Below are positions 403 through 36,031 of a stretch of 40,804 nt of DNA, piece after piece. Origin of the DNA: a virus; IMG/VR virus record IMGVR_UViG_3300021960_000180, positions 1 to 40,804 of that record, one strand, 5' to 3'. The notes beneath the pieces are model-generated. The model made no database searches. It saw nothing but the letters and a program-made list of their open reading frames with translations, and was not told the origin of the DNA. Every line of letters starts with the position of its first letter. Within the stretch, counting starts at the first letter, position 1. A program made the translations under genes and the position numbers.

Positions 403-648
403 CATGAGGAAGTTAATTACTACAAGGAAAGATGAGAAATTATGAAAGGAAGATCATCTATACCTTGATTAATATTATATGCCTTTTATTAAATTGTGCA
501 ATATATTTTTTACATAACCATCCTTTTATTTAAGTGACGGGGGGTGTTCCTATATAGAGGGGGTGGGGGTCTGCGGTTTTCAATTTTGTTCTAGTAATTC
601 ATGCAAGTCTTAGTGCGTAAGCACGCTGTCGGAGTCCCATTTTGTTTT

Positions 649-672
649 GGGTTGGTGGGTATAGGGTAGGGG
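649..672 (+). other. Canonical G-quadruplex motif
   Basis: Four G-tracts (649-651, 657-659, 664-666, 669-672) are separated by loops of 5, 4 and 2 bases, which satisfies the usual G3+N1-7 rule. This is striking in an AT-rich genome. It lies 20 bases before a CCTGACA palindrome and about 160 bases before the gene at 831, on the non-template strand of that gene. Folding and function are inference. Confidence 0.55.
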
Positions 673-692
673 CTTATTTATACCACGCGAAA

Positions 693-709
693 CCTGACAC
701 TATGTCAGG
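693..709. repeat. Junction palindrome copy 1 (CCTGACA-CTA-TGTCAGG)
   Basis: Perfect 7-base arms with a 3-base centre. Flanking AA/TT extends the arms to 9 bases (691-711). It is followed at once by the AT palindrome at 711-730. First of the 11 copies in the window. Confidence 0.85.
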
Positions 710-710
710 T

Positions 711-730
711 TAGTAAAAATAAGTTTACTA
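711..730. promoter_or_regulatory. AT palindrome TAGTAAA-N6-TTTACTA
   Basis: Two inverted TAGTAAA half-sites around a 6-base centre. The same half-site recurs six times at 2015-2499 and again inside the promoter at 3551-3579, so this looks like a full operator for whatever binds those single sites. A short T-run (731-735) follows, so a weak AT-rich terminator is an alternative reading. Confidence 0.5.
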
Positions 731-830
731 TTTTTGGCTTTTGTCTGTCATTTAATACATAATTACACCATGTTGCGATTGATTGACACAGGGTTAATCA
801 TGGACAACATATTTTATAGGAGTATTAGCG

Positions 831-1613
831 ATGGAAAATACAACGCTAAATCAAGCGGTGCTATCAACGCTTAAATCAGATAGTAAAGGGTTCGTTATTT
901 CATCAACCGAAGCAATCGCAAAAGCGGAAGCAATCGCGAAAGTGATCGAGCAATTCATTAGCTCTAAGCTAATCAAGGCTAGATCACCCGAGGGAAAAAC
1001 GATGGAAGAATATCGGGATGAAGTTGCGGACGCATGGCAAAATGCCCCCGATGAAGTTACTGAAGCTATCACAAGCGGAGTAACTGAGGGCGTTTTAGCT
1101 GGTGAAGCATACAAGGATAAAGTTGTCAGGATGTACGACAACGGATCTGAATATGTTGATCCAGATGTTGCGGAAGTATCCGCCCATAAGCAAGGAATTG
1201 ATTTTAATCCTGATGATATTAAATCGTTTGGAATGAGTTATATCCTTACCCAAAATTGGCAGGCTCTAAGCTATGCCATAAAAAAGGATGGTACTACATC
1301 CAATCCAATGGGTTCTTATGGTATATCATTTAAGAAACTTGCGAATGATACAAGGACTACTTGTAAAAATACCATTGATCAAAATGTTAGCCGAATCAAG
1401 GGCCGCATCGTTAAGTACCTTGCAAGTACTTACGGCTTGATCAATGAGGAAGTTGATCCTGTTGATGAGATTGAAACCAAATCTCTTAATTGGGTCAAAT
1501 CTCAGAAAAACTTAGTTGAGAAGTTACCCTCCGCTAAGCAACAGAAAATCTGGTCTGACGCTGTCAGTAAGTGTGATGAGATTCTAACTAAAGCAATCGC
1601 ATCATTGAAGTAA
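831..1613 (+). CDS. Unknown 260-residue protein
   Basis: Starts at ATG 831 with a good Shine-Dalgarno AGGAG at 818-822 and ends in TAA, followed nine bases later by a strong terminator, so it is a single-gene transcription unit. The protein is soluble and mostly helical by composition, with an acidic middle (about residues 55-120) and a basic segment near 165-205. I recognise no domain. Its codon use looks slightly less AT-rich than the small genes to its right. It is isolated between two non-coding stretches crowded with repeats, so a regulator or replication-initiation role is possible but is only a guess from position. Confidence 0.7.
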   Translation: MENTTLNQAVLSTLKSDSKGFVISSTEAIAKAEAIAKVIEQFISSKLIKARSPEGKTMEEYRDEVADAWQNAPDEVTEAITSGVTEGVLAGEAYKDKVVRMYDNGSEYVDPDVAEVSAHKQGIDFNPDDIKSFGMSYILTQNWQALSYAIKKDGTTSNPMGSYGISFKKLANDTRTTCKNTIDQNVSRIKGRIVKYLASTYGLINEEVDPVDEIETKSLNWVKSQKNLVEKLPSAKQQKIWSDAVSKCDEILTKAIASLK

Positions 1614-1622
1614 GCTATCCCT

Positions 1623-1660
1623 AGCCCCACATGGTCAAAAGCCGTGTGGGGCTTTTTTTT
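1623..1660 (+). terminator. Intrinsic terminator after the 831-1613 gene
   Basis: AGCCCCACATGG (1623-1634) pairs with CCGTGTGGGGCT (1641-1652, with one G-T wobble) around a short loop and is followed by an uninterrupted T-run to 1660. It lies directly downstream of the TAA at 1611-1613. Confidence 0.93.
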
Positions 1661-1741
1661 GCCCTGAATTTTCTAGTATGCTTCCCCTTTTGAAACCAGT
1701 TCCCCCCGCGCGCGTGCGAGCGCCTCACGTTGCGAGGACGA

Positions 1742-1758
1742 CCTGACACCCTGTCAGG
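1742..1758. repeat. Junction palindrome copy 2 (centre CCC)
   Basis: Perfect CCTGACA/TGTCAGG arms with a CCC centre. It ends the first TGAAACCAGTTCC cassette. Confidence 0.85.
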
Positions 1759-1769
1759 TTTAGTTTCTA

Positions 1770-1784
1770 CTATGATTATCATAG
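1770..1784. repeat. 15-base palindrome CTATGAT-T-ATCATAG
   Basis: Perfect 7-base arms around a single T in non-coding DNA, between the two CCTGACA palindromes. It could be an operator. No second copy was seen. Confidence 0.5.
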
Positions 1785-1868
1785 CTGACACAAATATTAT
1801 AACCGTATTTCAACTATTCTGAAACCAGTTCCGAGCGAGCGAGCGTGGCATCACCAAGAATTATCATG

Positions 1869-1885
1869 CCTGACACCCTGTCAGG
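1869..1885. repeat. Junction palindrome copy 3 (centre CCC)
   Basis: Perfect arms, extended by flanking G and C to 8 bases (1868-1886). It ends the second cassette and sits directly before the TTGTTCCA array. Confidence 0.85.
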
Positions 1886-1887
1886 CT

Positions 1888-2343
1888 TTGTTCCAACGAG
1901 ATTTACTTTGTTCCAACTTGATGACGTAGTCTGGAACAAGATTTTACTTTGTATATCAACGACTTAACTAGGTTTGTTCCAATGTTCCAACTATTTTTAA
2001 CAGGATATGCTGGTTAGTAAAGTTTTAGGCATCGTTCGCCTTGTTTTTGCAGTGCAACCTAACTTTACATTCCCCCATCGTCCTACAAAACCACTGGAAC
2101 ATTGGAACAAAACACTAATTTAACTATAACTATATAATATTATATATAATAAAAACAACAACTTAGCTCATTGCCTATCCTCTTGTTCCGTTCCATTAGT
2201 AAAGTTACAGGGTCATATTTCGTGGAACATGAATAAAATCAAGCACTTACAGAGAAAACACCTTAAATTAGTAAAGTTATTTGGAACAAGATTTACACAA
2301 AGCTCACTTGTTCCATTAGTAAACTTAGCTTGGAACGGAACAA
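1888..2343. repeat. TTGTTCCA/TGGAACAA array with TTAGTAAA sites; candidate origin
   Basis: About a dozen copies of TTGTTCCA or its complement occur in 456 bases (near 1888, 1908, 1932, 1974, 1983, 2095, 2102, 2183, 2190, 2223, 2281, 2307, 2330 and 2336). They are interleaved with TTAGTAAA sites (2015, 2197, 2269, 2317). Several copies are joined as GTTCC-ATTAGTAAA, and three carry an AGATTTAC or AGATTTTAC extension. Short directly and inversely repeated sites beside an AT-only block are typical of iteron origins, but a multi-site regulator platform would look the same. Confidence 0.6.
2116..2155. other. AT-only block, possible DNA-unwinding element
   Basis: Forty bases that are almost pure A and T, with alternating TATATA steps, inside the repeat array. 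In iteron origins such a block is where the duplex opens. Here this is inferred from position only. Confidence 0.4.
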
Positions 2344-2480
2344 AAACCCAGTCGAATACAACACCCATCATCTAAGAAAACATTACATGAACAAAGTCTC
2401 AACGCTACGCATACTAGAAACACTATACCCCAATTTGTAAAAAACGATATATTTAGTACCCCACAAAATTTGAAAAGCCC

Positions 2481-2509
2481 TTGATTTGTTAGTAAACTTG
2501 TGGTATAAT
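2481..2509 (+). promoter_or_regulatory. Sigma70-type promoter for the 2592 operon
   Basis: TTGATT (2481-2486), a 17-base spacer and TATAAT (2504-2509). The spacer contains TTAGTAAAC, with TAGTAAA starting nine bases after the start of the -35. This layout is shared base for base with the promoter at 3551-3579. Transcription would start near 2516 and give a leader of about 75 bases with a palindrome just before the ribosome site. Confidence 0.85.
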
Positions 2510-2558
2510 AATATAATGAGAGAAGCGAATTACATCTTTCAATTTTTTATTTTTTTGT

Positions 2559-2575
2559 CCTGACAGGGTGTCAGG
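2559..2575. repeat. Junction palindrome copy 4 (centre GGG)
   Basis: Perfect arms in the 5' leader of the gene at 2592, immediately before the ribosome site GAGGAG (2579-2584). In RNA it would form a hairpin next to the start region. Confidence 0.85.
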
Positions 2576-2591
2576 TTTGAGGAGTTAAACT

Positions 2592-2900
2592 TTGGATTTA
2601 CACTATTTATTTAGTAGCGAATATGCGAACGCTAAGAAACTTGGCTTGGCATCACAGTTCATTACTTTGTATAAACATTTTAGAAGATGTGATACATCGT
2701 TGAGCCGTGATGACAGTATATTCTATGCGATAGTCAATGCGACTAAATATTTACAAGGCTCTTTAGTTAGAGTTTATGGTAAATATTTAGGTGTAACAGG
2801 CGATGCGATGCGTATGCGTGGAGGTAGGCAATATACATTAGTTCGCTTTGCAAAGGGCAATAAAGATTATGTGTACAACAATGAGCTTAATGGTATTTAA
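2592..2900 (+). CDS. Unknown 102-residue protein, TTG start
   Basis: Begins at TTG 2592; GAGGAG at 2579-2584 gives a proper ribosome site at normal spacing and no ATG lies nearby, which decides the start. The product is small and basic, with many Tyr, Arg and Lys (an RMRGGRQY stretch near residues 74-81), as in proteins that touch nucleic acid. No family recognised. It is first in the transcription unit driven by the promoter at 2481-2509 and is flanked by palindromes on both sides (2559 and 2902). Confidence 0.7.
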   Translation: MDLHYLFSSEYANAKKLGLASQFITLYKHFRRCDTSLSRDDSIFYAIVNATKYLQGSLVRVYGKYLGVTGDAMRMRGGRQYTLVRFAKGNKDYVYNNELNGI

Positions 2901-2901
2901 A

Positions 2902-2917
2902 CCTGACAGGGTGTCAG
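2902..2917. repeat. Junction palindrome copy 5 (centre GGG, last base missing)
   Basis: CCTGACA-GGG-TGTCAG starts two bases after the stop codon of the preceding gene and ends before the AGGAG ribosome site of the next. The last G of the consensus is T. Confidence 0.8.
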
Positions 2918-2941
2918 TTATTATTATATTAGGAGATAGTT

Positions 2942-3145
2942 ATGAATAAGAAACTAAGTGAAGATTCAATACAAAGGTATTGGGAAGACAGTTTAAGGTA
3001 TCATCGCATGTTACCTGAGTTCCAAATACAAGATCGTAAACAACGTAAGATTGATATGATCATGTCATGTGCTATGGCATATCTCATGGGCGTGTTGACT
3101 GTTCTTATTATATGGGCGATGTATCAAGTGAGGATTGGACTATGA
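2942..3145 (+). CDS. Small single-pass membrane protein, unknown
   Basis: 67 residues from ATG 2942 with AGGAG at 2931-2935. A polar, charged N-terminal half (about residues 1-37) is followed by one hydrophobic stretch (about 39-61, AYLMGVLTVLIIWAM) and a short tail, so the protein is probably anchored with its N-terminal half in the cytoplasm. No family recognised. Its stop overlaps the next start as ATGA at 3142-3145, pointing to translational coupling. Confidence 0.65.
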   Translation: MNKKLSEDSIQRYWEDSLRYHRMLPEFQIQDRKQRKIDMIMSCAMAYLMGVLTVLIIWAMYQVRIGL

Positions 3146-3342
3146 CTACCTGTAATCTATGTGGTAATGAATTCTCTAGCGATAGAGCAAAACTAGGTTT
3201 CAAGGTTTGTTTGGACTGTGGAGAAAGACAAGCCGAGAAAGTTAAGCATTGTGTAGCACCAATGCACAAGAGCAATTATATGTTATTCACAAACTACGAT
3301 GACTTGAAAGGCATCAACAACAAAGGGGGATTAATTAAATGA
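3142..3342 (+). CDS. Small zinc-ribbon-like protein
   Basis: 66 residues from ATG 3142. This start overlaps the previous stop by four bases and is preferred to an upstream in-frame ATG at 3067, which would overlap the membrane gene heavily. Cys4-x2-Cys7 and Cys23-x2-Cys26 form two CxxC knuckles (CNLC and CLDC), the pattern of a zinc ribbon. The rest is polar. Possible roles are DNA, RNA or protein contact; none can be fixed. Confidence 0.65.
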   Translation: MTTCNLCGNEFSSDRAKLGFKVCLDCGERQAEKVKHCVAPMHKSNYMLFTNYDDLKGINNKGGLIK

Positions 3343-3509
3343 GTATAACTAATTCAGAAGATATAAAAATTATATTAGCAAACAGACGCAAGATTAAGTC
3401 TGAGAAAGAATCATGGGCTAGGGATAGCTATGACAGGGGGTCTAACTTTGATATAGAAGATAGACAGTTGATAAATGACATTGAACAGTTCGCTCAAAGA
3501 GAGGATTAA
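3339..3509 (+). CDS. Unknown 56-residue protein
   Basis: ATG 3339 overlaps the previous stop by ATGA and the frame ends in TAA at 3507-3509. The product is highly charged and probably helical (RRKIKSEKESWARD, then an acidic stretch DIEDRQLINDIEQ). The overlap chain with the two genes before it supports real translation. No homology recognised. Confidence 0.55.
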   Translation: MSITNSEDIKIILANRRKIKSEKESWARDSYDRGSNFDIEDRQLINDIEQFAQRED

Positions 3510-3550
3510 TTATTAGAAAAATAAACAGGTATGGTAAATTAGAATCTCTA

Positions 3551-3579
3551 TTGACATATTAGTAAAGATGTAGTATAAT
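3551..3579 (+). promoter_or_regulatory. Consensus sigma70 promoter before the AAA+/VWA operon
   Basis: TTGACA (3551-3556), exactly 17 bases, then TATAAT (3574-3579): a near-perfect promoter. The spacer carries TTAGTAAAG in the same register as the promoter at 2481-2509, and both continue with AATA after the -10. A repressor or activator that sees TTAGTAAA would control both. Transcription should begin near 3586 and meet the terminator-like palindrome after about 45-70 bases. Confidence 0.92.
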
Positions 3580-3628
3580 AATAAGTAGAATGAAAATTTA
3601 CCTTAGTTTTTATTTAAATTTATTTTAC

Positions 3629-3656
3629 GAGCCTGACACCGTGTCAGGCTCTTTTT
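3629..3656 (+). terminator. Leader terminator or attenuator built on junction palindrome copy 6
   Basis: The CCTGACA palindrome (3632-3648, centre CCG) is extended by GAG/CTC to 11-base arms (3629-3639 with 3641-3651) and followed by TTTTT (3652-3656), an intrinsic terminator. It lies between the promoter at 3551 and the start codon at 3672, with the ribosome site GGAGAG beginning five bases after the T-run. It therefore looks like an attenuator, or the end of a short leader RNA. Confidence 0.8.
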
Positions 3657-3671
3657 ACATGGAGAGACATT

Positions 3672-4598
3672 ATGTATAACTTTGAACAAGAAGTTAAGCT
3701 ACAACAACCAAGTCATATCGTATCACTAGCAACATCGGCAGTGTTGGTATCAGTTGATGTGAATGTTTGGTCAGCAACAAAACAAGATCGAGTTATCTCA
3801 AGCGAGGTAACAACATCAAAGAAAGCAGATCCTAATGCAGGTCGGTTTGTTAAGAATCTATTATCTAACAACCCATACCACAAGGACTTAGTGAATTATA
3901 GACAGACTATTTATAATTGGCTTAAGCGTAGCACATACAGGTGGAACAACGCCCAGGACTTACTGCCAACCATCAGCTTAGAAACTTTTAAATCAGAGTA
4001 TGACAAGCATGAGAGGGAGTTTAATAGATTACTAGATGTGTTCTGTGATAAATATGATTCTATTAAATCAAACATGGCTTTTAGTCAGGGGGATATGTAT
4101 AACCGAGAGGACTATCCTGAAGTATCTGAAGTTCGTAGAAAGTTTGGGTGTAGATTGTACATATCAGAAGTTCCCGAACAGGACTTTAGGTGTCAGGTAG
4201 CGAGTGACTTAGCATCTGACTTAAAAATTACTTATGAAAGACAAGCAAGGGAGATAGTTAAAAATGTATTACATCAACAAACAGAAAGAATCATTGATGT
4301 CATGGAGAGTATCGCACATTGCTGTGGAACGCAAGAGATTACTACCAAAGACGGCGAGACTACAACAAAGAAACGAAAGATATATGATACAACCATCGAA
4401 AAAGCCAAAGACTTGTGTCGCACGATAGGGGCTTTTAGATATGTAGACAACGAACATAGTCAGAAACTTAGATCAGTAGCGAAACAATTAGATGATGCAT
4501 TAGAGGGTGTGTCTACTGATATGTTACGAGATTCAGACTATACAAGAGATAGAGTGAAGAATGATATTGACGACATTCTATCTAAATTTTCAATTTAA
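3672..4598 (+). CDS. Putative third component of the MoxR-VWA module (DUF3150-like)
   Basis: 308 residues from ATG 3672 with GGAGAG at 3661-3666. No catalytic motif is visible; the sequence is charged and helical, with probable coiled-coil stretches around residues 105-130 and 165-220 and in the C-terminal 60 residues. First gene of the operon followed by a MoxR-type ATPase and a VWA protein. In other phages and plasmids an uncharacterised helical protein of the DUF3150 type often precedes such pairs; I assign that by position and character, not by a firm motif. It may be the substrate adaptor or scaffold of the ATPase-VWA machine. Confidence 0.6.
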   Translation: MYNFEQEVKLQQPSHIVSLATSAVLVSVDVNVWSATKQDRVISSEVTTSKKADPNAGRFVKNLLSNNPYHKDLVNYRQTIYNWLKRSTYRWNNAQDLLPTISLETFKSEYDKHEREFNRLLDVFCDKYDSIKSNMAFSQGDMYNREDYPEVSEVRRKFGCRLYISEVPEQDFRCQVASDLASDLKITYERQAREIVKNVLHQQTERIIDVMESIAHCCGTQEITTKDGETTTKKRKIYDTTIEKAKDLCRTIGAFRYVDNEHSQKLRSVAKQLDDALEGVSTDMLRDSDYTRDRVKNDIDDILSKFSI

Positions 4599-4599
4599 A

Positions 4600-4616
4600 C
4601 CTGACATGGTGTCAGG
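4600..4616. repeat. Junction palindrome copy 7 (centre TGG)
   Basis: Perfect arms, extended to ACCTGACA/TGTCAGGT. It starts two bases after the stop codon at 4596-4598 and precedes the AGGAGAG ribosome site of the ATPase gene. Confidence 0.85.
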
Positions 4617-4637
4617 TATGCAAACTAGGAGAGCAAC

Positions 4638-5699
4638 ATGCATACACAGAGAGTAACAATTAGAGAGTTAGTAACACTTATTTATACTATTGGTAAAGAT
4701 CTTACACCTATTATTCAATCAGAGCCCGGGTGTGGCAAGACATCTTTACTTAAGATGTTAGAGGAAGAACATGGTGACAAATATGATTACATCTATGTTG
4801 ATTGCCCCGTTAAGGACATGCAAGACATAGCGATGACTATTCCTAACCATGAAACACGAACACTTGAAACCTATGTTGGTTCATTGTTCAAACTAGATAG
4901 TGCAAAGCCTAAGATTATCTTACTTGATGAGTTTATGAAAGCACCGAAATTACTACAAGTTATTTTTACTAGGCTCATGCTAGAGAGATGCGTAGGTGAT
5001 ACAAAGTTACCTGAGGGTTCTATTGTGTTTGGCACATCGAACAATCAAAGCGATGGAGTAGGCGATACGATGATGGCTCATGCGGGTAACCGAGTTTGTA
5101 TCTTGCAAATGGAAAAGCCACGAGTTGAAGATTGGTTAGCTTGGGCGGGTGATAATGGCATACACCCATTGATTAGAGCGTGGGTCCACATGTTCCCTAG
5201 ATCATTGAATAGTTACTTAGATGAGGGACAAGATGACAACCCATACATATTCAACCCAAAGAAACCACAGTTGAGTTTTGTATCGCCACGATCTTTAGCT
5301 AAGTCATCGGTCATTGTCTCTAACCGAGACACACTAGGAGAGGTAGCCACAATGTGTGCATTGTCAGGCACTATTGGGTTAAGTGCATCGGCAGATATGT
5401 CAGCATTTCTATCGCTAGAGAAACAATTACCTAAGTATGAGGACATCATCAATAATCCTGATACTACTAAAATACCAACAGAAATCTCAGCACAGTTGAT
5501 GGTAATGTTCCAAGCGACAGACAAGATTAAGACACAAGACGAGTTATCTAAATTCATGAGATTCGTTAAGCGTATTAATTCGTCTGAGATACAAGCAATA
5601 TTCTTTACAATGTGTGTGCGTAGTAAACAATGCCGAGCCATTGCTAGATCCAATGCGGACATAGCGAAATGGGCAACCGATAACTACGACTTATTTTAA
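4638..5699 (+). CDS. MoxR/CobS-like AAA+ ATPase
   Basis: 353 residues, ATG 4638 after AGGAGAG. Walker A is SEPGCGKTS (residues 28-36), Walker B IILLDEF (93-99), and a sensor-1-like GTSNN follows near residue 135. Arrangement and length fit the MoxR/CobS branch of AAA+ ATPases, which work as rings with a VWA-domain partner to remodel or insert cofactors into target proteins. The VWA partner is the next gene. Palindromes bracket the gene on both sides (4600 and 5702). The target in this phage is unknown; there are no porphyrin or cobalamin genes nearby, so a chelatase role is unlikely. Confidence 0.88.
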   Translation: MHTQRVTIRELVTLIYTIGKDLTPIIQSEPGCGKTSLLKMLEEEHGDKYDYIYVDCPVKDMQDIAMTIPNHETRTLETYVGSLFKLDSAKPKIILLDEFMKAPKLLQVIFTRLMLERCVGDTKLPEGSIVFGTSNNQSDGVGDTMMAHAGNRVCILQMEKPRVEDWLAWAGDNGIHPLIRAWVHMFPRSLNSYLDEGQDDNPYIFNPKKPQLSFVSPRSLAKSSVIVSNRDTLGEVATMCALSGTIGLSASADMSAFLSLEKQLPKYEDIINNPDTTKIPTEISAQLMVMFQATDKIKTQDELSKFMRFVKRINSSEIQAIFFTMCVRSKQCRAIARSNADIAKWATDNYDLF

Positions 5700-5701
5700 C
5701 A

Positions 5702-5717
5702 CCTGACACGGTGTCAG
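5702..5717. repeat. Junction palindrome copy 8 (centre CGG, last base missing)
   Basis: CCTGACA-CGG-TGTCAG starts three bases after the ATPase stop and precedes the AAGGA ribosome site of the VWA gene. Confidence 0.8.
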
Positions 5718-5732
5718 AAAGGATTATGAGAT

Positions 5733-6905
5733 ATGAGTATCACACAAGAAACAAGACTTAAGAAAGCACACATCACTTTGATGAGACACCCTGAGACTGC
5801 ACTTTACTCAGGCATCATGATGATGGGTAAGAATGAAGTTGTAGATGATATTCCAACGGCATGCACAGATGGGTTCAATAAAAAGTATGGTAGGAAGTTT
5901 ATGGAATCTTTATCTGATGAGGAACTACGAGGTCTGATTCTACACGAGAACTTACACATAGCATTGAAACATATTCAACGCTTTAAGAAAGAGTTTAACG
6001 ATGATCCACAATTTGTGAATGCATCAGCAGATTATGTTGTAAATGACATCATCATGAGTCTGGAAGATAAATCTGTATGTCACTTACCACAAGGTGGGTT
6101 ATACAATGCGAAGTATCATAATTGGTCTGTCAGAGAAGTTATGAATGACTTGAAACAAGAACAAGAGAAAGGTAACCAACCTAACTTAGGTTCATTAGAT
6201 GAGCATGACTTTGATGGTGATGAGGGAGAAGGTCTATCACCACAAGAACAGAAAGCACTAAGTGATAAGATTGATCGAGCATTACGAGAGGGTTCTATAC
6301 TAGCAGGTAGACTGAAAGGTAAAGTGCCAAGAGGTATTACACAAATGCTAGAGCCCAAGCTAAGTTGGAAAGATATCTTGAGAGATTTTATTACATCACA
6401 AATGCGTGGCACTGATGAGTATACATGGCGAAAGTATAACAAACGACTTGTCGCTAATGATATTTATATGCCAAGCATGGAAGATGAGCGTGTAGGTGAG
6501 TTGGTAGTAGGTATAGATACGTCAGGTTCTATCAGTGATACATACTTGTCAGCATTTTTGACAGAACTGGTTTCAATCTGCGACATTGCCAACCCTGAAA
6601 AAATTAGACTTTTGTGGTGGGACACTGAGGTTCATGGTGAACAAGTATTTGAGAATGATTACAATGGACTATTTAGTAAAGCAAAGCCACAAGGGGGTGG
6701 AGGGACTGATCCAACCTGTATACCGAAATACATCGCTAAGAATAATATTAACGCACAGGCAGTTATTGTATTCACTGACGGTTATTTCTTTGAAATACCT
6801 ACATGGGACTTGTCAACACCAACGTTGTTTGTAACAACAGAAAATGAAAATTATATCCCGACAGGGTGTCAGGTTATTAAACAAAACTTAGAGGAGTATG
6901 CATGA
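5733..6905 (+). CDS. Metallopeptidase-like VWA protein (DUF2201/CobT-like)
   Basis: 390 residues. The N-terminal part carries HENLH at residues 71-75 with a further His80 (HExxH-x4-H), as in the putative metallopeptidase domain of DUF2201. An acidic linker (about 145-172, rich in Asp and Glu) follows, then a VWA domain from about residue 255 with a complete MIDAS metal site: DTSGS (262-266), Thr325 in a GGGGTDP loop and TDG (348-350). This is the classic partner of a MoxR/CobS ATPase, encoded just upstream. Whether the HExxH is an active protease is unknown. A palindrome copy lies inside the 3' end of this gene. Confidence 0.87.
   Translation: MSITQETRLKKAHITLMRHPETALYSGIMMMGKNEVVDDIPTACTDGFNKKYGRKFMESLSDEELRGLILHENLHIALKHIQRFKKEFNDDPQFVNASADYVVNDIIMSLEDKSVCHLPQGGLYNAKYHNWSVREVMNDLKQEQEKGNQPNLGSLDEHDFDGDEGEGLSPQEQKALSDKIDRALREGSILAGRLKGKVPRGITQMLEPKLSWKDILRDFITSQMRGTDEYTWRKYNKRLVANDIYMPSMEDERVGELVVGIDTSGSISDTYLSAFLTELVSICDIANPEKIRLLWWDTEVHGEQVFENDYNGLFSKAKPQGGGGTDPTCIPKYIAKNNINAQAVIVFTDGYFFEIPTWDLSTPTLFVTTENENYIPTGCQVIKQNLEEYA
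6857..6873. repeat. Junction palindrome copy 9, inside coding sequence (one mismatch)
   Basis: CCCGACA-GGG-TGTCAGG, one base off consensus, lies 32 bases before the VWA stop and encodes part of its C-terminus. The position near the 3' end keeps the pattern of one palindrome per gene boundary. Confidence 0.7.
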
Positions 6906-7057
6906 TGAGTAAAATATTTAGAGTAAACATAACACAGTATTGCAAACCTATCACGGTGTTTGCACAAACAGAAGAACAGGCAATATTAAAAGCACAAGAA
7001 CAATCAACATGGGAAGTGCATGATGCTGAGTTTCAAGCAGAGGAGATTACATCATGA
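6902..7057 (+). CDS. Unknown 51-residue protein
   Basis: ATG 6902 (or ATG 6905) overlaps the VWA stop; TAGAGGAG at 6889-6896 is the ribosome site. The frame ends at 7057 as ATGA shared with the next gene. The product begins with a beta-like stretch (KIFRVNITQYCKPITVFAQT) and continues as an acidic helix, which resembles small DpnD/PcfM-like phage proteins, though I cannot confirm it. Coupled on both sides, so probably real. Confidence 0.55.
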   Translation: MMSKIFRVNITQYCKPITVFAQTEEQAILKAQEQSTWEVHDAEFQAEEITS

Positions 7058-7272
7058 GTAAAGAGATTATATACCGATTCACTGTCGGGTGTTGGTTTGT
7101 ATTGGGTCTTACAATGGGGGCATTATCAATGCGAGTGTATGATATGTTTGATTATTTAGACAGACAAAAAGATACAGTATATATCTGTCATAAAAACATA
7201 GCATATCAAGCAATGGGCGAAAATGATGGTGTTGTGTATGTAAAAACAAACTTACAATGTTTAGGAGAGTAG
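7054..7272 (+). CDS. Small single-pass membrane protein, unknown
   Basis: 72 residues from ATG 7054 with GAGGAG at 7040-7045. One hydrophobic segment near the N-terminus (about residues 9-28, GCWFVLGLTMGALSM) is followed by a polar domain with two Cys (near residues 44 and 68), so it may be anchored with the C-terminal domain outside the cytoplasmic face. The function is unknown; small membrane proteins of this sort in accessory phage regions are often host-envelope modifiers. Confidence 0.6.
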   Translation: MSKEIIYRFTVGCWFVLGLTMGALSMRVYDMFDYLDRQKDTVYICHKNIAYQAMGENDGVVYVKTNLQCLGE

Positions 7273-7273
7273 C

Positions 7274-8227
7274 ATGTTTGAGAAAGTATATTTTGATATA
7301 TTAGCTGATATAGTAAAAAACGATAAACCATACAGAAATAGGCATAATGAATATCCTGTATTAAATAGACGGCATGGATATAAATACTTTAAACCTATTT
7401 ATGAAACGGGTAAAAAGTTTAGTCAAGAAACCTTGTTGGGGTTTGATATATATTATTACAACACTAAACTAATTAGTGTTTATAAAGATGATGTTGTTGA
7501 GATACAAGAGCAAGATATTTATCAAGGCGAAAGACATTTTCTTAATTTATTAAATGCTGATTCTTTTGGTTCATGCTCACAAGGATATTGGAGCGAGGGT
7601 CAAATTATCTTTCATGATGTTCGAAGAGGTGGATCTGTATATGCAAAAGTATTAGATGCAAAAGGTAGATATGCAGTTACATTACCATTGCATCGTGGAA
7701 TGAAATATTACATGAGATCTGATGAGCCTGTGACTAAATATGATATTGTCAGAATGATAGTTGATAGAAAAAAGTCTCATGACATACTGTCAGGTCACAA
7801 AGATGGACTTAAGTATATAAAAACTTATTGGAAATCAATTCTATCACAGATAAATAATTCAAGTTTTGATGAATTAGAAAAAGAAATTGATGAAAGGCTA
7901 AAGAGTAAATACTCTAATACATTCTTTAATGATAGTGAGATAGGTTACATACTTAAAGATTTAATTGAACAAAAAGATTATGCAACACTAGGAGATTTAT
8001 TATTTCATAGAGGAAAAAGTAACAGTACCATATTTCATTACATGAAATGGAGATCTTCTGTGCCTGAAGGAGAAGTAGAGCGTGCTGTTAATTATATGTT
8101 AGATTCATTTAAACATTTAGTGTGGGATACTTTTGAAGTGTACAAAGAAATATCTACACCATGTGAATTACGATACATACCAAGCAATCCAATACAAAAA
8201 GTTGTTTTAAGAAAGGAAACTGTATGA
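7274..8227 (+). CDS. Unknown 317-residue protein
   Basis: ATG 7274 with AGGAGAG immediately upstream (7262-7268). A soluble, Tyr-, Lys- and Asp-rich protein with no transmembrane segment and no motif I recognise. The C-terminal half is helical. It ends in ATGA overlap with the next gene. A one-mismatch junction palindrome (7778-7794) lies inside the gene. The region 7274-9948 is clearly more AT-rich in third positions than the replication genes, which may mean later acquisition. Confidence 0.65.
   Translation: MFEKVYFDILADIVKNDKPYRNRHNEYPVLNRRHGYKYFKPIYETGKKFSQETLLGFDIYYYNTKLISVYKDDVVEIQEQDIYQGERHFLNLLNADSFGSCSQGYWSEGQIIFHDVRRGGSVYAKVLDAKGRYAVTLPLHRGMKYYMRSDEPVTKYDIVRMIVDRKKSHDILSGHKDGLKYIKTYWKSILSQINNSSFDELEKEIDERLKSKYSNTFFNDSEIGYILKDLIEQKDYATLGDLLFHRGKSNSTIFHYMKWRSSVPEGEVERAVNYMLDSFKHLVWDTFEVYKEISTPCELRYIPSNPIQKVVLRKETV
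7778..7794. repeat. Junction palindrome copy 10, inside coding sequence (one mismatch)
   Basis: CATGACA-TAC-TGTCAGG differs from the consensus arms by one base. It is inside the 317-residue gene, the only copy not at a gene edge, so it may be chance or a relic. Confidence 0.5.
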
Positions 8228-8460
8228 GTAACCGAGAATACAAAATAGCAGAGATAAAAGCTAGATATAGTCGAGACGAGATATTAGATATGTTATTAGA
8301 TTATAAAGGACAGTCATGGGATACGGCTACTCATGAAGAGATGTTAGAAGCAATAGTTAATCTACATTTAGATGGGTGTGATTCATATAATAAATACTCT
8401 ACTGATGAACTAGCAAAATGTTTGGTAAACGAGCGTCAATGGTGGGGAGAGATGGAATGA
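8224..8460 (+). CDS. Unknown 78-residue acidic protein
   Basis: ATG 8224 overlaps the previous stop (ATGA) and AAGGAAA precedes it. A helical, acidic protein with no recognised domain. It ends at 8460 with ATGA overlap into the next gene. Part of a tightly coupled run 6902-8898. Confidence 0.55.
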   Translation: MSNREYKIAEIKARYSRDEILDMLLDYKGQSWDTATHEEMLEAIVNLHLDGCDSYNKYSTDELAKCLVNERQWWGEME

Positions 8461-8714
8461 GTATGCCAAGCATTGAAGACGAAACATGGCAGTATTGGTG
8501 TAACGAGGTGGAAGCTAATTGCCCAACACCGTCCGACAAGTATCGCATGGCTTACAAAGTAATGATGTATAAATGCTTTGAACACCCAAGTGAAAAGGAA
8601 CGGCAACATATTATTGAGGGATTATTAGAACATTATATCTACTCAGTAGACAACAAAGATTTGATTCACTTGATAGCCGATGCATTACGAAATAAGGAGA
8701 TAGACTATGACTGA
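8457..8714 (+). CDS. Unknown 85-residue protein
   Basis: I take ATG 8457, which overlaps the previous stop by four bases and has GGGGAGAG upstream; the in-frame ATG at 8418 would bury 43 bases in the previous gene. The protein is helical and acidic with a few Cys and Trp. No family recognised. Confidence 0.55.
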   Translation: MSMPSIEDETWQYWCNEVEANCPTPSDKYRMAYKVMMYKCFEHPSEKERQHIIEGLLEHYIYSVDNKDLIHLIADALRNKEIDYD

Positions 8715-8898
8715 GTTTGATTATGATATTAAAATTAAAATCCCTGTTGAGTTGAGGATATGGGATAAAGAAGGTAAAGAAGTTACTCAAACGATGGACT
8801 TGGTATTAGGTAGTGAAGTAATAGAAGATGATACTTTGCAGATGATATTCAGAGACATTGATAATTATATTAACACTAACATTATGAGAAATAGATAG
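8707..8898 (+). CDS. Unknown 63-residue protein
   Basis: ATG 8707 overlaps the previous frame by eight bases; AAGGAGATA (8694-8702) is a strong ribosome site. The composition suggests alternating beta strands (FDYDIKIKIPVELRI and TQTMDLVLG) and then a helix. Function unknown. Confidence 0.5.
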   Translation: MTEFDYDIKIKIPVELRIWDKEGKEVTQTMDLVLGSEVIEDDTLQMIFRDIDNYINTNIMRNR

Positions 8899-8907
8899 GA
8901 GAGAGAA

Positions 8908-9948
8908 ATGCAAATTAAAAAGGAATTTAAGTACTACGAAAATTATGACATTGAAGTTATGGATACTAAGTTTTTAGAATACATCTATGAAGTTTGTCAT
9001 ACTTATGGTTTGAAAGTATTAAATAAGATATTTTTAGTTGAAAGTTATACTGACTATTTAGATTTTAAACCTTACGATAGACGAGCAGAAGAGGCATATA
9101 AGGGAGAAGCTAATGCAGTTGCCTTGACTGAAAACGGAATTATTAATGCGGTCATATCTTATAGAAATGGTAACTATTATTATTCAACAGATAAAAGATT
9201 AAAAGAAAAAGGCGATCATAAGTTTATTAGATCAAGTAGTTTAAAAGATATACTTAGAAAAATTAAATTACATAGTACTAGATTACCTAGTGGTAATAAG
9301 CCAATTACAACGGCAGAAATATTAGGATTAGACATTCATAATAAACAGAACCCAATAGGTGCAAAAATACAAGCAGACTATGTAGACACAGCATCTATTA
9401 AACGAGATTATAATTCTATGAGTATGAATGGTGTTGAACTACATCAGCTATTATTACATTCATTGAAAGATAAAACAATAGAACTTAGTGATTCATACAA
9501 ACAAAAACTTGACAAGTTTGATAAATTGTTCGATGATATTAACTTAGGTTTAACGAATATACAAAATGATCTTGCAAAACCTTTTTATGTATTTATTAAA
9601 CAACCAATGATACATGGTAATGCTTGTGTAATATTTAAAGCTAAGTTAGATGAGCAATATAAAAGTTTACAAGTAGTTGGAGAAGTCAAGGGGTATGAAA
9701 ATATAGAAGACTTCGAAGACTTTGATAAAGTTAAAAGTAAATTATTAATGTGGTCATTAGAAATAGAAAATAAATATTCAAATAAATCAGGCTTTTCTTG
9801 GTTAATTGATAAAGTTATTCCTAAAATTGATGAATACTTTAATTCTGATAAAGATAAAATAGATGCCGTAGAGTTTGGAGTTGGCGCACTTAAACTTCAA
9901 TACAATACTTGGCAAATGTATGCGACTTATGTAATAGATGATAATTAA
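8908..9948 (+). CDS. Unknown 346-residue protein
   Basis: ATG 8908 after AGGAGAGAG (8898-8906). A Lys/Asp/Tyr-rich soluble protein, very AT-rich gene, no motif recognised. Together with the 317-residue protein it is the second long orphan of this accessory run; I see no convincing sequence similarity between the two beyond composition. Confidence 0.65.
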   Translation: MQIKKEFKYYENYDIEVMDTKFLEYIYEVCHTYGLKVLNKIFLVESYTDYLDFKPYDRRAEEAYKGEANAVALTENGIINAVISYRNGNYYYSTDKRLKEKGDHKFIRSSSLKDILRKIKLHSTRLPSGNKPITTAEILGLDIHNKQNPIGAKIQADYVDTASIKRDYNSMSMNGVELHQLLLHSLKDKTIELSDSYKQKLDKFDKLFDDINLGLTNIQNDLAKPFYVFIKQPMIHGNACVIFKAKLDEQYKSLQVVGEVKGYENIEDFEDFDKVKSKLLMWSLEIENKYSNKSGFSWLIDKVIPKIDEYFNSDKDKIDAVEFGVGALKLQYNTWQMYATYVIDDN

Positions 9949-10291
9949 ACACGAACTAGAACCTATACCACATTTCAAAATGACGGATTATATCCGTGTC
10001 CCCGTTCACAAGAGTGGAGATGATTATATAGTGCATATTGGTAAAAAGAATAAGCGAATATATACTCTTTCCACTCTACCTTCTTTTATTACATCTAAAC
10101 TTACCGTAGCAAATGTATTATCTAATAATACTATTTCTGATGAACAGCTAGATCCTAGTAAATTATTTATTTGTCATGAAGATGGCGGAGATCCTGACTT
10201 AGCATGGAAAGCAAGTGATAGTTATTATATAGTTATAATTCATCATAATGAATTTTTATCGTTGTTAGGACTAGGAGAAAATGACACCTGA
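9938..10291 (+). CDS. Unknown 117-residue protein
   Basis: ATG 9938 lies 11 bases inside the previous gene; there is no strong ribosome site, so translation is probably coupled. Acidic and His-rich (HEDGGD and IIHHNE). No recognised fold. It ends at 10291, overlapping the nuclease gene by 11 bases. Confidence 0.55.
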   Translation: MIIKHELEPIPHFKMTDYIRVPVHKSGDDYIVHIGKKNKRIYTLSTLPSFITSKLTVANVLSNNTISDEQLDPSKLFICHEDGGDPDLAWKASDSYYIVIIHHNEFLSLLGLGENDT

Positions 10292-10580
10292 AAAGAAAGT
10301 TAAAACAAGAGTTAAGAAACTATTAGATGAACTAGGTTGTTACCATTGTATGCCTGCAACGGGTGGATATGGTGCAAGCGGAATACCTGATATTATTGCA
10401 TGTTATCAGGGTAAGTTTATAGGAATAGAATGTAAAGCCAACGGAAACAAACCTACCTTACTTCAATTAAAACACCTAAATGATATTAGCTTTGCGGGCG
10501 GACTTTCAATAGTCATTGACGAACATAATATAAATATGTTAGAATTATATATCACGGGTAAGCAAACCATTAATAAGTAA
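10281..10580 (+). CDS. VRR-NUC domain nuclease
   Basis: 99 residues, the usual size of the stand-alone phage VRR-NUC proteins (PD-(D/E)XK superfamily, structure-specific or Holliday-junction-type nucleases). Visible catalytic set: GIPD (34-37), ECK (50-52) and Gln62 in the following helix. ATG 10281 has TAGGAG at 10275-10280. A palindrome starts right after the stop. Probable role: processing of branched DNA during phage replication or recombination. Confidence 0.85.
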   Translation: MTPEKKVKTRVKKLLDELGCYHCMPATGGYGASGIPDIIACYQGKFIGIECKANGNKPTLLQLKHLNDISFAGGLSIVIDEHNINMLELYITGKQTINK

Positions 10581-10597
10581 CCTGACACCCTGTCAGG
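10581..10597. repeat. Junction palindrome copy 11 (centre CCC)
   Basis: Perfect arms, extended to ACCTGACA/TGTCAGGT. It starts at the base after the VRR-NUC stop and precedes the AAAAGGA ribosome site of the DUF3310 gene. It is the rightmost copy; none was seen in the remaining 30 kb. Confidence 0.85.
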
Positions 10598-10612
10598 TAG
10601 AAAAGGAATAAC

Positions 10613-10852
10613 GTGTCAGAAATTAAAAATGATATGGTAAATCACCCACCACATTATACGGCAGGTGGTATAGAAACCATTGACTTTATCAAAGCAAAGC
10701 TATCACCTAAAGAATACATAGGTTATCTACGAGGAAACATATTCAAATACAATTCTAGGATTGGCTTGAAAGATGATCCTATTCAAGATGCAGGTAAGAT
10801 TGAATGGTATGCAAAAGAACTTAAAAAATATATTCAGGAGATTAAATCATGA
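10613..10852 (+). CDS. DUF3310 protein, GTG start
   Basis: 79 residues. The HPPHY motif (11-15), the EtiDF segment (21-25) and the GNIFKYNSR helix (41-49) followed by a charged C-terminal helix are the signature of the DUF3310 family, small phage proteins sometimes labelled nucleotide kinase although the activity is not established. GTG 10613 is chosen because AAAAGGA precedes it by six bases and HPPHY then sits at its usual place. It ends in ATGA overlap with the next gene. Confidence 0.88.
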   Translation: MSEIKNDMVNHPPHYTAGGIETIDFIKAKLSPKEYIGYLRGNIFKYNSRIGLKDDPIQDAGKIEWYAKELKKYIQEIKS

Positions 10853-16327: not shown

Positions 16328-16903
16328 TTGAATTTAGAATTAATTAAATGTAAACGCACAGATTCTATATATCAAGAAATAAGAAACAGACATTATATCC
16401 CTAATAAAGGAACTCATGGACAGCAAATGCATTATAAAATAAAATTAGATAATAATATTGTTGGTATTATTAGTGGTGCAAGTTCAGTATGGGCAGTAAA
16501 AGCTAGAGATGATTTTTTTGGATTAACAAAAGAGAATAAAAGAAAAGGACTGCCTTCTATTATTAATAATACTGTTTTTAGATTAGAAGTACACGTTCCA
16601 AATTTAGCGACTAGAGTTTTAGCAATGTGGAGAAAAAGATGTGCTCAAGATTGGTTGGAAAGATATAACGTAATTCCACACGGATTTGAAACATTTGTAA
16701 TAGAAACAGATTATAGAAAAGGAACTTTATATAAAGCAGATAATTGGGTTTGTTTAGGTAAAACTGCAGGAAGTACAAAAGCTCATCCAAAAGGAATGAC
16801 ACAGAAATCTGAACGAGTTGAGACTATACCTAAATTAATATACGCTAAAAAAATACCTAAAACAAAATTATCTACTGAGTATGAAGCTACTTGGAATAAA
16901 TAA
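16328..16903 (+). CDS. DUF4338/DruA-like protein
   Basis: 191 residues, TTG start at 16328 three bases after the previous stop. The order of motifs matches DUF4338: RHYIPN (21-26), a GQQMHYKI strand (31-38), INNTVFRLEV (79-88), PNLATRVL (91-98) with Trp109, GFETFV (119-124) and GTLYKADNW (132-140) followed by LGKTAGS. DUF4338 defines DruA of the Druantia defence systems, whose biochemistry is unclear; stand-alone copies occur in mobile elements. No other Druantia gene is visible. It is followed by HNH-like genes. A DNA-modification or anti-defence role is inference. Confidence 0.72.
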   Translation: MNLELIKCKRTDSIYQEIRNRHYIPNKGTHGQQMHYKIKLDNNIVGIISGASSVWAVKARDDFFGLTKENKRKGLPSIINNTVFRLEVHVPNLATRVLAMWRKRCAQDWLERYNVIPHGFETFVIETDYRKGTLYKADNWVCLGKTAGSTKAHPKGMTQKSERVETIPKLIYAKKIPKTKLSTEYEATWNK

Positions 16904-20553: not shown

Positions 20554-20865
20554 ATGGCAAGACCTTATAGTACTAAATTTTTAGTCGGACTTTCCAACGC
20601 TGATTCTAATAGAGTTGGCATACAATTAGCTAAACTTTGTGTTGATGCAAATATACCAGCTAATAGTATTGCCAACTTCTTTGGAGTATCAAGAATGGCA
20701 GTGCATGGATGGTTTCGTGGTAATTACATTAGAGAAGAAAAATGTATAAAGATTATGAAATTTATTGATTATGTTAAGAGAGATTTAGATTCTGGCGATT
20801 TACCAGCAAAGACTACTAAATCTACAAAGGAGTATTTAAGTAATATACAAGATAAATATTTATAG
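20554..20865 (+). CDS. Helix-turn-helix DNA-binding protein
   Basis: 103 residues, ATG 20554 with AGGAG at 20543-20547. Residues about 34-58 (IPANSIANFFGVSRMAVHGWFRG) form a Cro/CI-type helix-turn-helix, with Gly45-Val46-Ser47 in the turn. The C-terminal third is charged. It could be a transcription regulator of this operon, the reader of one of the repeat motifs to the left, or a replication factor. No oligomerisation domain is evident. Confidence 0.75.
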   Translation: MARPYSTKFLVGLSNADSNRVGIQLAKLCVDANIPANSIANFFGVSRMAVHGWFRGNYIREEKCIKIMKFIDYVKRDLDSGDLPAKTTKSTKEYLSNIQDKYL

Positions 20866-23896: not shown

Positions 23897-26800
23897 TTAG
23901 TCATATTGCTCAAGCCCAACTTCAATCATAGCTGCAATATTTTTCTTATATAATAGTTGTAATTCTTTAATACCTTGTAATCTAGCTTGTCTTTCTTTTT
24001 GACTTAATCCAGGCATTCTTCTTATTGTGGATGCTTGGTCATTTAATTTATCCAAATCTGCTTTTTGTTGATTATATGCATCTATAAGTACAGGTACAGA
24101 AGGATACTTACTTAAAACTTTATTATATTCTATTGGGTTAGCGTCTTTAAATAAGTCAATTCTTGTTTCTAAAGCCTTTAATCTTTCCACTTGCTTACTA
24201 TAATCTCGTTGTTCAATCCTAGAATATTTACTTATAAAACTATCAAAGAATATAGTATCTCGTTTAAAATCAAATTCTTTCTGTCCACGTAAGAATAAAC
24301 TAATACCATATATATCATGAGCAACTCTTGCTATAGCATCCCCATAGTTATTTGCAAAAAAACTTATTGTATTGGGACCCCAATTTATATAACCACCTGA
24401 TATTTCTGCAAGGAATCTAGAAGCATCTTTATACGCTTCAGGTATTTCATCGCTACCACCAAATGCGCCACCATATTTTCTAGTTTGTAATGGACTATAA
24501 ATATTTTGTCCGAAAGCGTTTAAATTAATAGCATACTCTACAGCAGGTCTAGCAATAGATGGAGCAGCAGTATCTAATACCCAACCAAGAGGATGTTCAA
24601 AAGGACTCATTCTTGAAAAAGGTAATGGCATAAAAGAATCTAACATAATGTTATACATATTACCTAATGTATCAGCTAATGGAATATTTTTACCACTTTG
24701 CGCAGCTGCTAACTGAGCTCCCATTGCAGCAAATCCACCTGGACCAAAACCCCAAGGTATTTGTAATACAGCATCTTTATCAAAACCAGGTAACCAACCT
24801 AAACTAACTCTTAAATATCTAGTCCATCTCGCTGGATCATCTTCTCGTGTAGGATTATCATCATCACCTCCACTAAACATAGCAGCCATTTGCCATGCAA
24901 CATACCCAACGGATACACCAACTGCAATTGTAGTCAATGCTGCTTGTCTTCTTTTATCAAAGTCCGCTTCCCATGTAGCTAATCTTTGAGGATCAGCTTT
25001 AATATAATTTGGTAAGTTTTGTTTTGCTATATCTTTTCTTTGTAGTGCTGCGGAAAAAGATTCAAAAGCTCTCATGATACCCACCGCACTTGGTTTAAAA
25101 AACATAAACCATGCAGCCATTTTATCACCTTGTATACCTGACTCTTCAAAGTTAGATAATCTTTTAGCATACACAGTAGCTGTTTCTATAGCAGCTTGTT
25201 TTACATTTGCAGGAATTTGATTTTCTGAAAGCCCTGGAGCATTTTTAGTAATATAATTTTGTTTTGCTGTTCTATATGCAGCAGCCCGAGTAGCCATCTC
25301 AAAGGTACTCATCCATATATCAAAGAAATCTTTTACACCTTGTTTAGTTCTAACAATACCATCTTTATTCTCTCTTATACTTTGTCTTAATCTATTAAAT
25401 GCATTCTCAATAGATAGAGATTGTGAGTAAGATATCATCCCACCATTTTCTAAATATTCAACTAGATCAGCTGGTAAGTTATTACCTTTAGCAGTTTGTT
25501 GTTGTACATATTTTCTTAGGTCATTTTTTTGCCCTTTAGTATACATACTCATTACATTCCATGTTTGTTGCATACCACCATTAACAACTGTATTAGCTAT
25601 ATTAGATGCATAACCTCCTAAATCTTTTAAACCAAACTCATTTCCAATATAAAATAAGTTAGTGATTGCATCACGAACAAAGTTTAATGTTGCAAACGGT
25701 GGATTAAACCTAGTATGAAATTGTCCTATAGTTCCTGTAAAACTATTTAACGTATTAACCCAAGTAGGATTATCTGCATAAACACCTCTAATAGCTTCTA
25801 CTAAATCTGGGTCTTTAATTTGTATTATAGCCATCGAACCATCACTCAATAAATGAACAATAGTATCTTTTTTATCTAGTTCTTCTTGTATTTCTGGATC
25901 ATTTAAATATCGTTGTTGATATGTAAATCGTTTTAATATTTTACCTTCTATAGCTTGCCCTTTCACAGGTTTACCTGTAGTAGGATCTGTATAATCTATA
26001 GTCTGGGTAACTGCATTATATATAGATTGTGTATAGTTAATTCTACCTGCTCTTCCTGCAGCTCTTGATGCATCAACTAATACTTGTGTAAATGGGTCTT
26101 CTGCATCATTATGATTACCCTCAAATGAACCTTCTAATTTTTTAAGTTCTCTAGATAATCTACTACCTGTTGGATTAAATATTGCATCTTCTGATATACC
26201 TTCAGCATCTTGTCTATGTTTTAAAGGCACATAGTTTTTCCAACCATAGAACTCAATAATATTCATTGCCTGAGGACTAGCATAGTTAGCAGTTTGATTT
26301 AATTTTAATGTTTGCTGATTTATTAATTGCATTGAATTTTTAACATGCTCGATAGATTGATATAATTGTGGATCAGCACGCTTAATACTTTCTATTTCAG
26401 CTTTTAATATAGCCGCTTTTTCAGAGTTGTAAGTGGATACATCATATCTAGAATTTACAATGTCAGTTGGTCCGCCTTTTTTATTTGGAGATGCGTAACT
26501 TATACCTGCAACTCCATCTACAGTATTTTTACCAGATATTTTTGTATCCTGATTAGCTAATTTTCTAAGTGTTTGTTTATAGTTTTCTAAATCAGCTTTT
26601 TTCTGAGTAGCATCAGACCATACTTTAGTAGTAATTTGATCCATTATATTTTGTCTTAAATCTGCAGGACTAGTTAAACTACCATCTTTTCTTCTAATAA
26701 TTTTTTCTGTACTTAATGGTACATCTAGTAAGTATCTTACTTCTCTACGTTCGGATTCATGTAATCCAGTTAACCATTGTTGTAATTGAGCTTTTGCTTC

Positions 26801-31537: not shown

Positions 31538-31546
31538 TATTTATCC

Positions 31547-32995: not shown

Positions 32996-32997
32996 AA

Positions 32998-34164: not shown

Positions 34165-34170
34165 AGTTAT

Positions 34171-36008: not shown

Positions 36009-36031
36009 AATAAGTTCCTATAATAATTTGT

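Follow-up and report, generated by a model that had tools for sequence, protein, structure and literature searches.

Repeated dyads of lineage-specific sequence at early gene junctions of an environmental phage group: candidate operators of a phage-encoded regulator

Introduction

Dispersed short repeats have been described in several phage groups, and here we examined one such family, the dyad CCTGACA-N3-TGTCAGG, in an uncultured phage represented by a 40,804-base virus record (IMG/VR record IMGVR_UViG_3300021960_000180; the whole of this stretch is referred to below as the window). The closest described design is that of the Cluster O mycobacteriophages, exemplified by Corndog, with 34 copies of the 17-bp repeat TGTTCGG-N3-CCGAACA, the function of which is unknown (PMC4351075, 2015). 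As far as the accessible sections of that paper go, the Corndog repeats and the window dyads share the 7-3-7 design, near-invariant arms around a variable centre, a high copy number (34 and 11, respectively), the location of many copies in short intergenic gaps, and signs of recombination between copies. They differ in their arms (TGTTCGG/CCGAACA versus CCTGACA/TGTCAGG) and in distribution, the Corndog repeats occurring throughout the genome whereas the window dyads keep to one early block. In the same sections, the Corndog repeats are described as not closely linked to translation starts, and neither lineage change nor promoter spacing is reported.

The stoperators of the L5/Bxb1 group (Cluster A mycobacteriophages) are oriented, asymmetric 13-bp sequences in temperate phages and are recognized by a helix-turn-helix repressor, and their consensus covaries with that repressor (PMC3029335). 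Judged from the accessible text, they resemble the window dyads in being many, dispersed, mostly intergenic and lineage-specific in consensus; unlike them, the dyads are symmetric, and a search of 10 records of the present group detected a tyrosine integrase in none (14 of 14 controls were positive), although these records may be incomplete. The SAS and extended SAS elements of Cluster K mycobacteriophages, likewise of unknown function, include inverted repeats that precede some of the start codons, are kept with gene families and differ in consensus between subclusters, as do the elements studied here; in the part of the report available, however, their 17-bp arms are imperfect, their spacers are mostly 4 to 13 bp, and they are tied to a 13-bp start sequence (PMC3203893). 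Asymmetric dispersed motifs, possibly stoperators, are also mentioned for Nostoc phages in the accessible part of PMC4916379. Within the limits of these partly accessible sources, the window dyads combine the design of the Corndog repeats with the lineage-specific dispersal of stoperators, yet lack defining features of each. A literature search, with subscription papers and preprints outside its scope, returned no description of these dyads or of this phage group. We argue below, at a probability of roughly 0.6, that the dyads would be double-stranded DNA operators of a phage-encoded dimeric regulator that damps early transcription.

Results

Eleven dyads occupy one block of the window

A first-pass annotation of the window had listed 11 palindromes with almost unchanged arms between positions 693 and 10597, and all of them were recovered with the centres it gave, seven being exact and four carrying one mismatch (Table 1). 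With up to three mismatches allowed, shuffled versions of the window contained a mean of 0.91 matches to the 17-mer (maximum 4 in 100 shuffles), such that the observed number lies well above chance. A twelfth match at 35935 has three mismatches and is chance-like. The central base of the dyads can be T, C, G or A. Confinement to the left 10.6 kb was borne out as well: a near-identical phage on a 54,163-base contig carries 11 sites (up to two mismatches), all at 29,696-39,600, and dyads are limited to about 10 kb in contigs of 54, 52 and 44 kb.

Nine of the 11 dyad centres are intergenic, while intergenic DNA makes up 15.1% of positions 600-10700 according to our own gene list (binomial p = 1.7e-6). 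A stop codon lies 0 to 2 nt before four copies (dyads 5, 7, 8 and 11), and the next start codon lies 14 to 23 nt past the end of five (dyads 4, 6, 7, 8 and 11); the ATG at 2942 is 23 nt past the end of dyad 5. Since dyads 9 and 10 fall within open reading frames (ORFs), the earlier description of the family as placed at gene junctions applies to nine copies rather than 11.

Related phages carry their own dyad families

The exact 17-mer was found in at least 119 stretches of IMG/VR. Among the matches listed, 13 loci have at least three copies, and 11 of these share proteins with the window, L069 and L106 being the exceptions (L-numbers denote loci of relatives). A search with the ATPase encoded in the dyad block yielded 69 loci. 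When repeated dyads were sought without a preset motif, a family of at least four copies was present in 43 of 72 sequences, versus one of 360 Markov-resampled controls; four further controls reached three copies. Motif classes were assigned by hand from this unbiased list, the genes of relatives are simply chosen ORFs, many loci are truncated, and several are near-duplicates or the same phage (the window, L008 and L124). The analyses below used hand-picked locus sets: 32 for dyad forms, 25 for arm changes and promoter pairs, 21 for promoter randomization, 18 for junction placement and 17 for Mantel tests.

By this assignment, 16 dyad forms were distinguished, many of them at orthologous junctions. 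They include CCTGACA-N3, CCCTAGA-N4, TTCCGTG-N4, TGTCGT-N6, CCTGTCA-N3, TGTCGAA-N4, TTCCACG-N4, CTTCAGG-N4 (to which L151 was assigned on two-mismatch sites only), TTCTGGGA-N3, TGCGTTAG-N4, CCTAACA-N1, CCTAACA-N2, TAGCGACA-N3 and AGTGTCA-N3, and the centre varies from 1 to 6 bases. The arms change together in all copies of one lineage. In places the change is stepwise, CCTGACA and CCTGTCA being found in loci whose ATPases, compared over a partial protein, are 88-90% identical, while TTCTGGGA is kept down to 52% identity; CCTGACA itself recurs at 44% in L100, a locus that was found via the 17-mer. In the ATPase identity comparison, 18 loci, many of them truncated, had no dyad class. A GCAAGTT-N7 family (L163, L169, L170 and L172) was treated as spurious, because these loci are truncated near-copies of TTCTGGGA loci (L163 and L164 share 100% ATPase identity). 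In Pseudomonas phage KPP25, the best dyad family has three copies, comparable to its shuffles (2 to 4).

Dyads recur at orthologous junctions and at a preferred distance from promoters

Two genes are, as discussed below, candidate regulators: X, the first rightward gene, which lies amid the first dyads, and H, further to the right (Table 1). A dyad was found upstream of X in 14 of 16 loci (3.2 expected) and downstream of X in 14 of 16 (5.2 expected), none of the 16 lacking it on both sides. Further along, dyads were observed upstream of c2 in 11 of 18 loci (2.8 expected), at the c2/ATPase junction in 10 (2.4 expected), at the ATPase/VWA junction in 7 (3.0 expected) and at the end of the VWA gene in 6 (2.6 expected), all expectations being derived from dyad density.

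On the plus strand, 41 pairs of a consensus sigma70 promoter and a dyad lie no more than 300 bp apart, and in 24 the dyad centre is 40 to 80 bp past the end of the -10 box, mostly 57 to 61 bp; the minus-strand control gave 26 pairs with a flat distribution. A strict promoter whose -10 box ends 40 to 75 bp upstream of the centre accompanies 21 of 188 dyads, which come from 12 of the 21 loci, versus a mean of 1.5 (maximum 7) in 1000 uniform placements. This spacing puts the promoter-linked dyads near +50 of the transcript. The dyad on the upstream side of X ends 85 to 139 nt before that gene in 13 loci and lies near its start in L137, L186 and L191. In L134, L139, L175 and L185, and less clearly in L127, this dyad adjoins or overlaps a promoter-like -35 box (combined p about 3e-4, the loci not being independent). 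Taken together, the dyad families, their placement and the promoter spacing in relatives strongly support the earlier suggestion of a selected recognition element.

These observations bear on two other explanations. If the dyads were DNA sites for replication, partition, packaging or DNA condensation, their many copies per genome and an origin-like repeat stretch nearby would be in keeping, but the promoter spacing and the location directly before ribosome sites would be left unexplained, and we regard this possibility as improbable. Hairpin promoters of an N4-type virion RNA polymerase appear less credible by far. The ATPase resembles, among others, a LUZ7 protein annotated as N4 gp24-like (22% identity), the window dyads would form three-base loops, and several stand just before ribosome sites. 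N4 hairpin promoters, however, need a fixed base at the loop centre, where all four bases occur here; moreover, dyads lie downstream of sigma70 promoters, and the centres in relatives range from 1 to 6 bases.

Several features were noted beside the promoters. The first transcribed bases past the early promoters (window 2510-2530 and 3580-3600) look alike across lineages by eye, being AGARTGAAAG-like, and possible short 5' hairpins were seen in these leaders, also by eye. The word TTAGTAAA occurs in the spacers of both strong early promoters (2489 and 3559), directly past dyad 1 (710), at 2014, 2196, 2268 and 2316, and in five further window copies elsewhere, and it is common to promoters of L117, L127 and L131; it is possibly a site for a second regulator. 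The non-coding, iteron-like stretch 1880-2520 holds five TTAGTAAA words and 14 GTTCC/GGAAC words (shuffled mean 0.6, maximum 4) and is a candidate replication origin.

Arm changes favour recognition as DNA

The 210 copies compared, from 25 loci, show 127 one-sided arm changes, of which 22 left a G-U pair, close to the one-sixth expected from random changes by our own reckoning; thus, no preference for G-U pairs was seen. Eleven changes were two-sided, and six of these restored a Watson-Crick pair versus about 1.2 expected. In L185, the centre is a single base, the inner A and T are kept in 13 of 13 copies, and only the outermost position drifts; across one base, this A and T cannot pair in RNA, which favours DNA. 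Predicted hairpins have class medians of -4 to -10 kcal/mol in most classes, and that of L185 is weak (median -2.6). The one-base centre of L185 and the lack of G-U preference favour duplex DNA as the recognized form. The first-pass annotation had proposed arm covariation for separating RNA from DNA; the six compensated changes among 11 fit either.

The competing explanation is that the dyads act as RNA hairpins in early transcripts, either bound by a phage protein for antitermination or translation control or stabilizing cistron ends. Lambda, with its gene order N-nut-tL1, offers a precedent: boxB of nut is an RNA hairpin that is read mainly via its loop, lies soon past an early promoter and has its partner protein encoded by the first gene. 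Here, too, an element lies soon past an early promoter and may have a lineage-specific partner from the first gene, and the succession of X and a terminator-like hairpin recalls the lambda order. The dyads near +50 and just before ribosome sites, the short hairpins that most forms can fold into and the six compensated changes among 11 are likewise what such hairpins would produce. Yet the centre is free, unlike that of boxB, the 22 G-U pairs among 127 changes show no preference for wobble pairing, each of the four mismatches in the window breaks an arm pair, and L185 folds weakly around its one-base centre with invariant A and T. Since the evidence favours DNA, we consider RNA hairpins rather unlikely, though less so than the two explanations weighed above.

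Recombination between copies was probably a single event in the window

A third proposal of the first-pass annotation was that the dyads could be recombination seams between gene cassettes; they might be carried along with mobile genes or be targets of a recombinase. One unit of the window has this appearance: at 2559-2918, a 102-residue ORF is flanked by dyads and sits between the promoter-linked dyad and a gene for a 67-residue membrane protein (2942-3145), whereas in L131 the relative of this membrane-protein gene directly follows its dyad. Similar events are reported for Corndog in the accessible part of PMC4351075. Recombination between dyad copies thus probably occurred once in the window, seemingly as a by-product. 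As an explanation of the whole family it is very unlikely, since the flanked core genes c2, ATPase and VWA are conserved and syntenic among relatives, and the arms change in every copy of a lineage. Of the three readings first offered, the operator of a dimeric regulator fits best.

Gene X tracks the dyads

Under the operator reading, a partner protein would be expected to change with the dyads, and similarities of neighbouring proteins were compared with dyad similarity. Given ATPase similarity, the partial Mantel correlation was 0.31 for X (0 of 2000 permutations; 0.29, 0 of 2000, with L100 included), compared with 0.16 for VWA, 0.11 for c7, -0.04 for VRR and -0.05 for c2. In the nine loci that have H, dyads were tracked by X (0.60, 1 of 2000) and not by H (-0.04). 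Cluster c2 and the zinc-ribbon-like cluster c7 had been considered as dyad partners and were set aside, as neither tracks the dyads.

X evolves fast. The window family extends by profile to L138, L139 and L006; it is probably related to the L144/L150/L162 family (hhalign 78.1), which in turn is possibly related to that of L134 (hhalign 42.4), and for the remaining families the same comparisons detected no relation. X occurs as two tandem copies in L144, L165 and L175. AlphaFold2 models of the first two families (pLDDT 85.8 and 90.4) appear similar, both being predicted to consist of helices, a small beta part, a long helix and C-terminal helices in like order.

Several points speak against X as the binder. 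With X given, ATPase (0.23, p 0.04) and VWA (0.25, p 0.03) still correlate with dyads, so that shared descent partly remains. L100 has three exact CCTGACA dyads, one of them about 9 bp upstream of the c2 ORF start, and the gene at its X position has no detectable relation to window X. Nor is the protein strongly basic, window X having a net charge of -5. PHROGs and Pfam searches with X and 28 relatives, at E-values up to 1, gave weak scattered matches and no recognized domain, and Foldseek found nothing at E <= 0.001 for window X in PDB and BFVD or for the second family in PDB. VIA-align matched mostly the C-terminal helices of the models (best Z 6.9 and 4.8), in the range of common helical arrangements; the lack of a fold match does not show a new fold. 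The tracking is a correlation, and X both adjoins the dyads and evolves fast. On balance, X may be the binder, an assignment that these comparisons make tentative.

Protein H is the alternative by fold

H, a helix-turn-helix-like protein, was present in 10 of 10 long records tested first, in 2 of 8 records of a second set (four of the records without it are fragments of 20-32 kb) and in 9 of 13 of a third; L164, L166 and L188 are common to the last two sets. Its relatives gave weak matches to Pfam helix-turn-helix families, all below the cut-off. No match was found among annotated phages, nor any relative in 21 loci compared, most of which do not extend that far. At six positions that we take, by analogy to the 434 repressor, to form the recognition helix, 5, 6 and 5 residues are identical in three pairs of loci that have a dyad in common, one pair being at 52% ATPase identity.

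Weighing against H, L188 and L191 are alike in all six residues and differ in their dyads; over 11 loci, correlation with dyad similarity was -0.18 for the recognition helix and -0.08 for the whole protein. The gene is located outside the dyad block, and H was not found in Rhizobium phage RHph_TM3_14A, in KPP25 or in the 48-kb record of L159. As the binder of a dimeric site, H is the more natural by fold and X by covariation. We deem H a doubtful binder, slightly more so than X, and about as much weight as X receives is left for something else.

Features of the window and of the phage group

Coordinates are collected in Table 1. The ATPase of the dyad block matches phrog_1297, and the block also encodes a DUF2201/VWA-like protein. 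Genes past the block include those for a PolA-like polymerase, an SNF2-type helicase and a primase/helicase; the best annotated matches of the polymerase are in Rhizobium phages of the RHph_TM group and in KPP25, at about 35% identity. Rfam gave nothing at the gathering threshold and ARAGORN no tRNA in the window, and none of 18 pattern matches to c2 relatives in cellular genomes was confirmed. Elsewhere in the window, the minus strand at 23897-31537 encodes a 2546-residue protein of which about 137 residues match phrog_37402, its one partial hit in PHROGs, the stretch 16328-16903 weakly matches phrog_1384, a Mom-like DNA modification family (E 2.4e-5), and one among 24 small proteins has a DruA Pfam match (E 4e-14).

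Table 1. Dyads, promoters and candidate regulator genes of the window (a dot in the strand column marks a feature without strand)
Feature	Coordinates	Strand	Remarks
Dyad 1	693..709	.	Exact, centre CTA; upstream of gene X
Gene X	831..1613	+	260 residues, fast-evolving; first candidate regulator (putative)
Terminator-like hairpin	1624..1660	+	With T run, past gene X; read by eye
Dyad 2	1742..1758	.	Exact, centre CCC; past gene X and terminator-like hairpin
Dyad 3	1869..1885	.	Exact, centre CCC
Sigma70-type promoter	2481..2509	+	TTGATT-17-TATAAT
Dyad 4	2559..2575	.	Exact, centre GGG; centre 58 bp past -10 box 2504-2509
Dyad 5	2902..2918	.	One mismatch; stop codon immediately before
Consensus sigma70 promoter	3551..3579	+	TTGACA-17-TATAAT
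Dyad 6	3632..3648	.	Exact, centre CCG; centre 61 bp past -10 box 3574-3579
Dyad 7	4600..4616	.	Exact; between c2 gene (3672-4598) and ATPase gene (4638-5699)
Dyad 8	5702..5718	.	One mismatch; between ATPase and VWA genes
Dyad 9	6857..6873	.	One mismatch; within 3' end of VWA gene (5733-6905)
Dyad 10	7778..7794	.	One mismatch; within ORF 7274-8227
Dyad 11	10581..10597	.	Exact; immediately 3' of VRR-NUC/Hjc-like gene (10281-10580)
Gene H	20554..20865	+	103 residues, helix-turn-helix-like; second candidate regulator (putative)

Discussion

From the placement, promoter spacing and lineage-specific sequence of the dyads, we infer that a phage-encoded protein binds them as a dimer and lowers early transcription. 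One operator would precede gene X and, in certain lineages, adjoin a promoter-like -35 box, such that the regulator would act on X too; others would lie about 50 bp past strong sigma70 early promoters and just before ribosome sites in the early operon. The bound protein would mainly block the path of RNA polymerase, a roadblock of the kind proposed for stoperators, and the brake would be applied at about +50 and at cistron borders. Regulator and sites would shift specificity jointly, which would give each lineage its own dyad.

A number of observations weigh against operators of this kind. In RHph_TM3_14A (L192, MN988472), GTTACCT-N4-AGGTAAC occurs 30 times over the genome when up to one mismatch is allowed (5, 22 and 3 in three stretches), 10 of 30 in the tested stretch are intergenic, and this phage fits the pattern less well. 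No dyad lies upstream of X in L144 and L162 or just downstream of it in L175 and L178, and L141 has none at any junction tested. A strict promoter at 40 to 75 bp is seen for no more than 21 of the 188 dyads, and a promoter at the X-side dyad is clear in about 5 of 14 loci, the window not being among them (p 0.35). The six compensated two-sided changes are equally compatible with an RNA stem and a dimer site. Separately, several sites in RHph_TM3_14A end 2 to 6 nt before start codons, so the AGG of the dyad could be a ribosome site there.

A more far-reaching version of the operator reading can be put forward, although we hold it to be unlikely: X would found a DNA-binding family without a recognized fold and, together with its dyads, would form an early-gene switch in apparently lytic phages, braking polymerase about 50 bp past initiation and at cistron borders; more than a dozen lineages would have altered its recognition code, one copy after another and in concert.

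The design described in Corndog recurs in a large environmental phage group, where it comes in many natural versions, with a preferred promoter spacing and two candidate partner genes, and the function of such dyads is now open to testing through lineage-matched dyads and candidate regulators. If the operator reading is true, these phages would offer a natural series in which a regulator and about ten sites have shifted specificity together.

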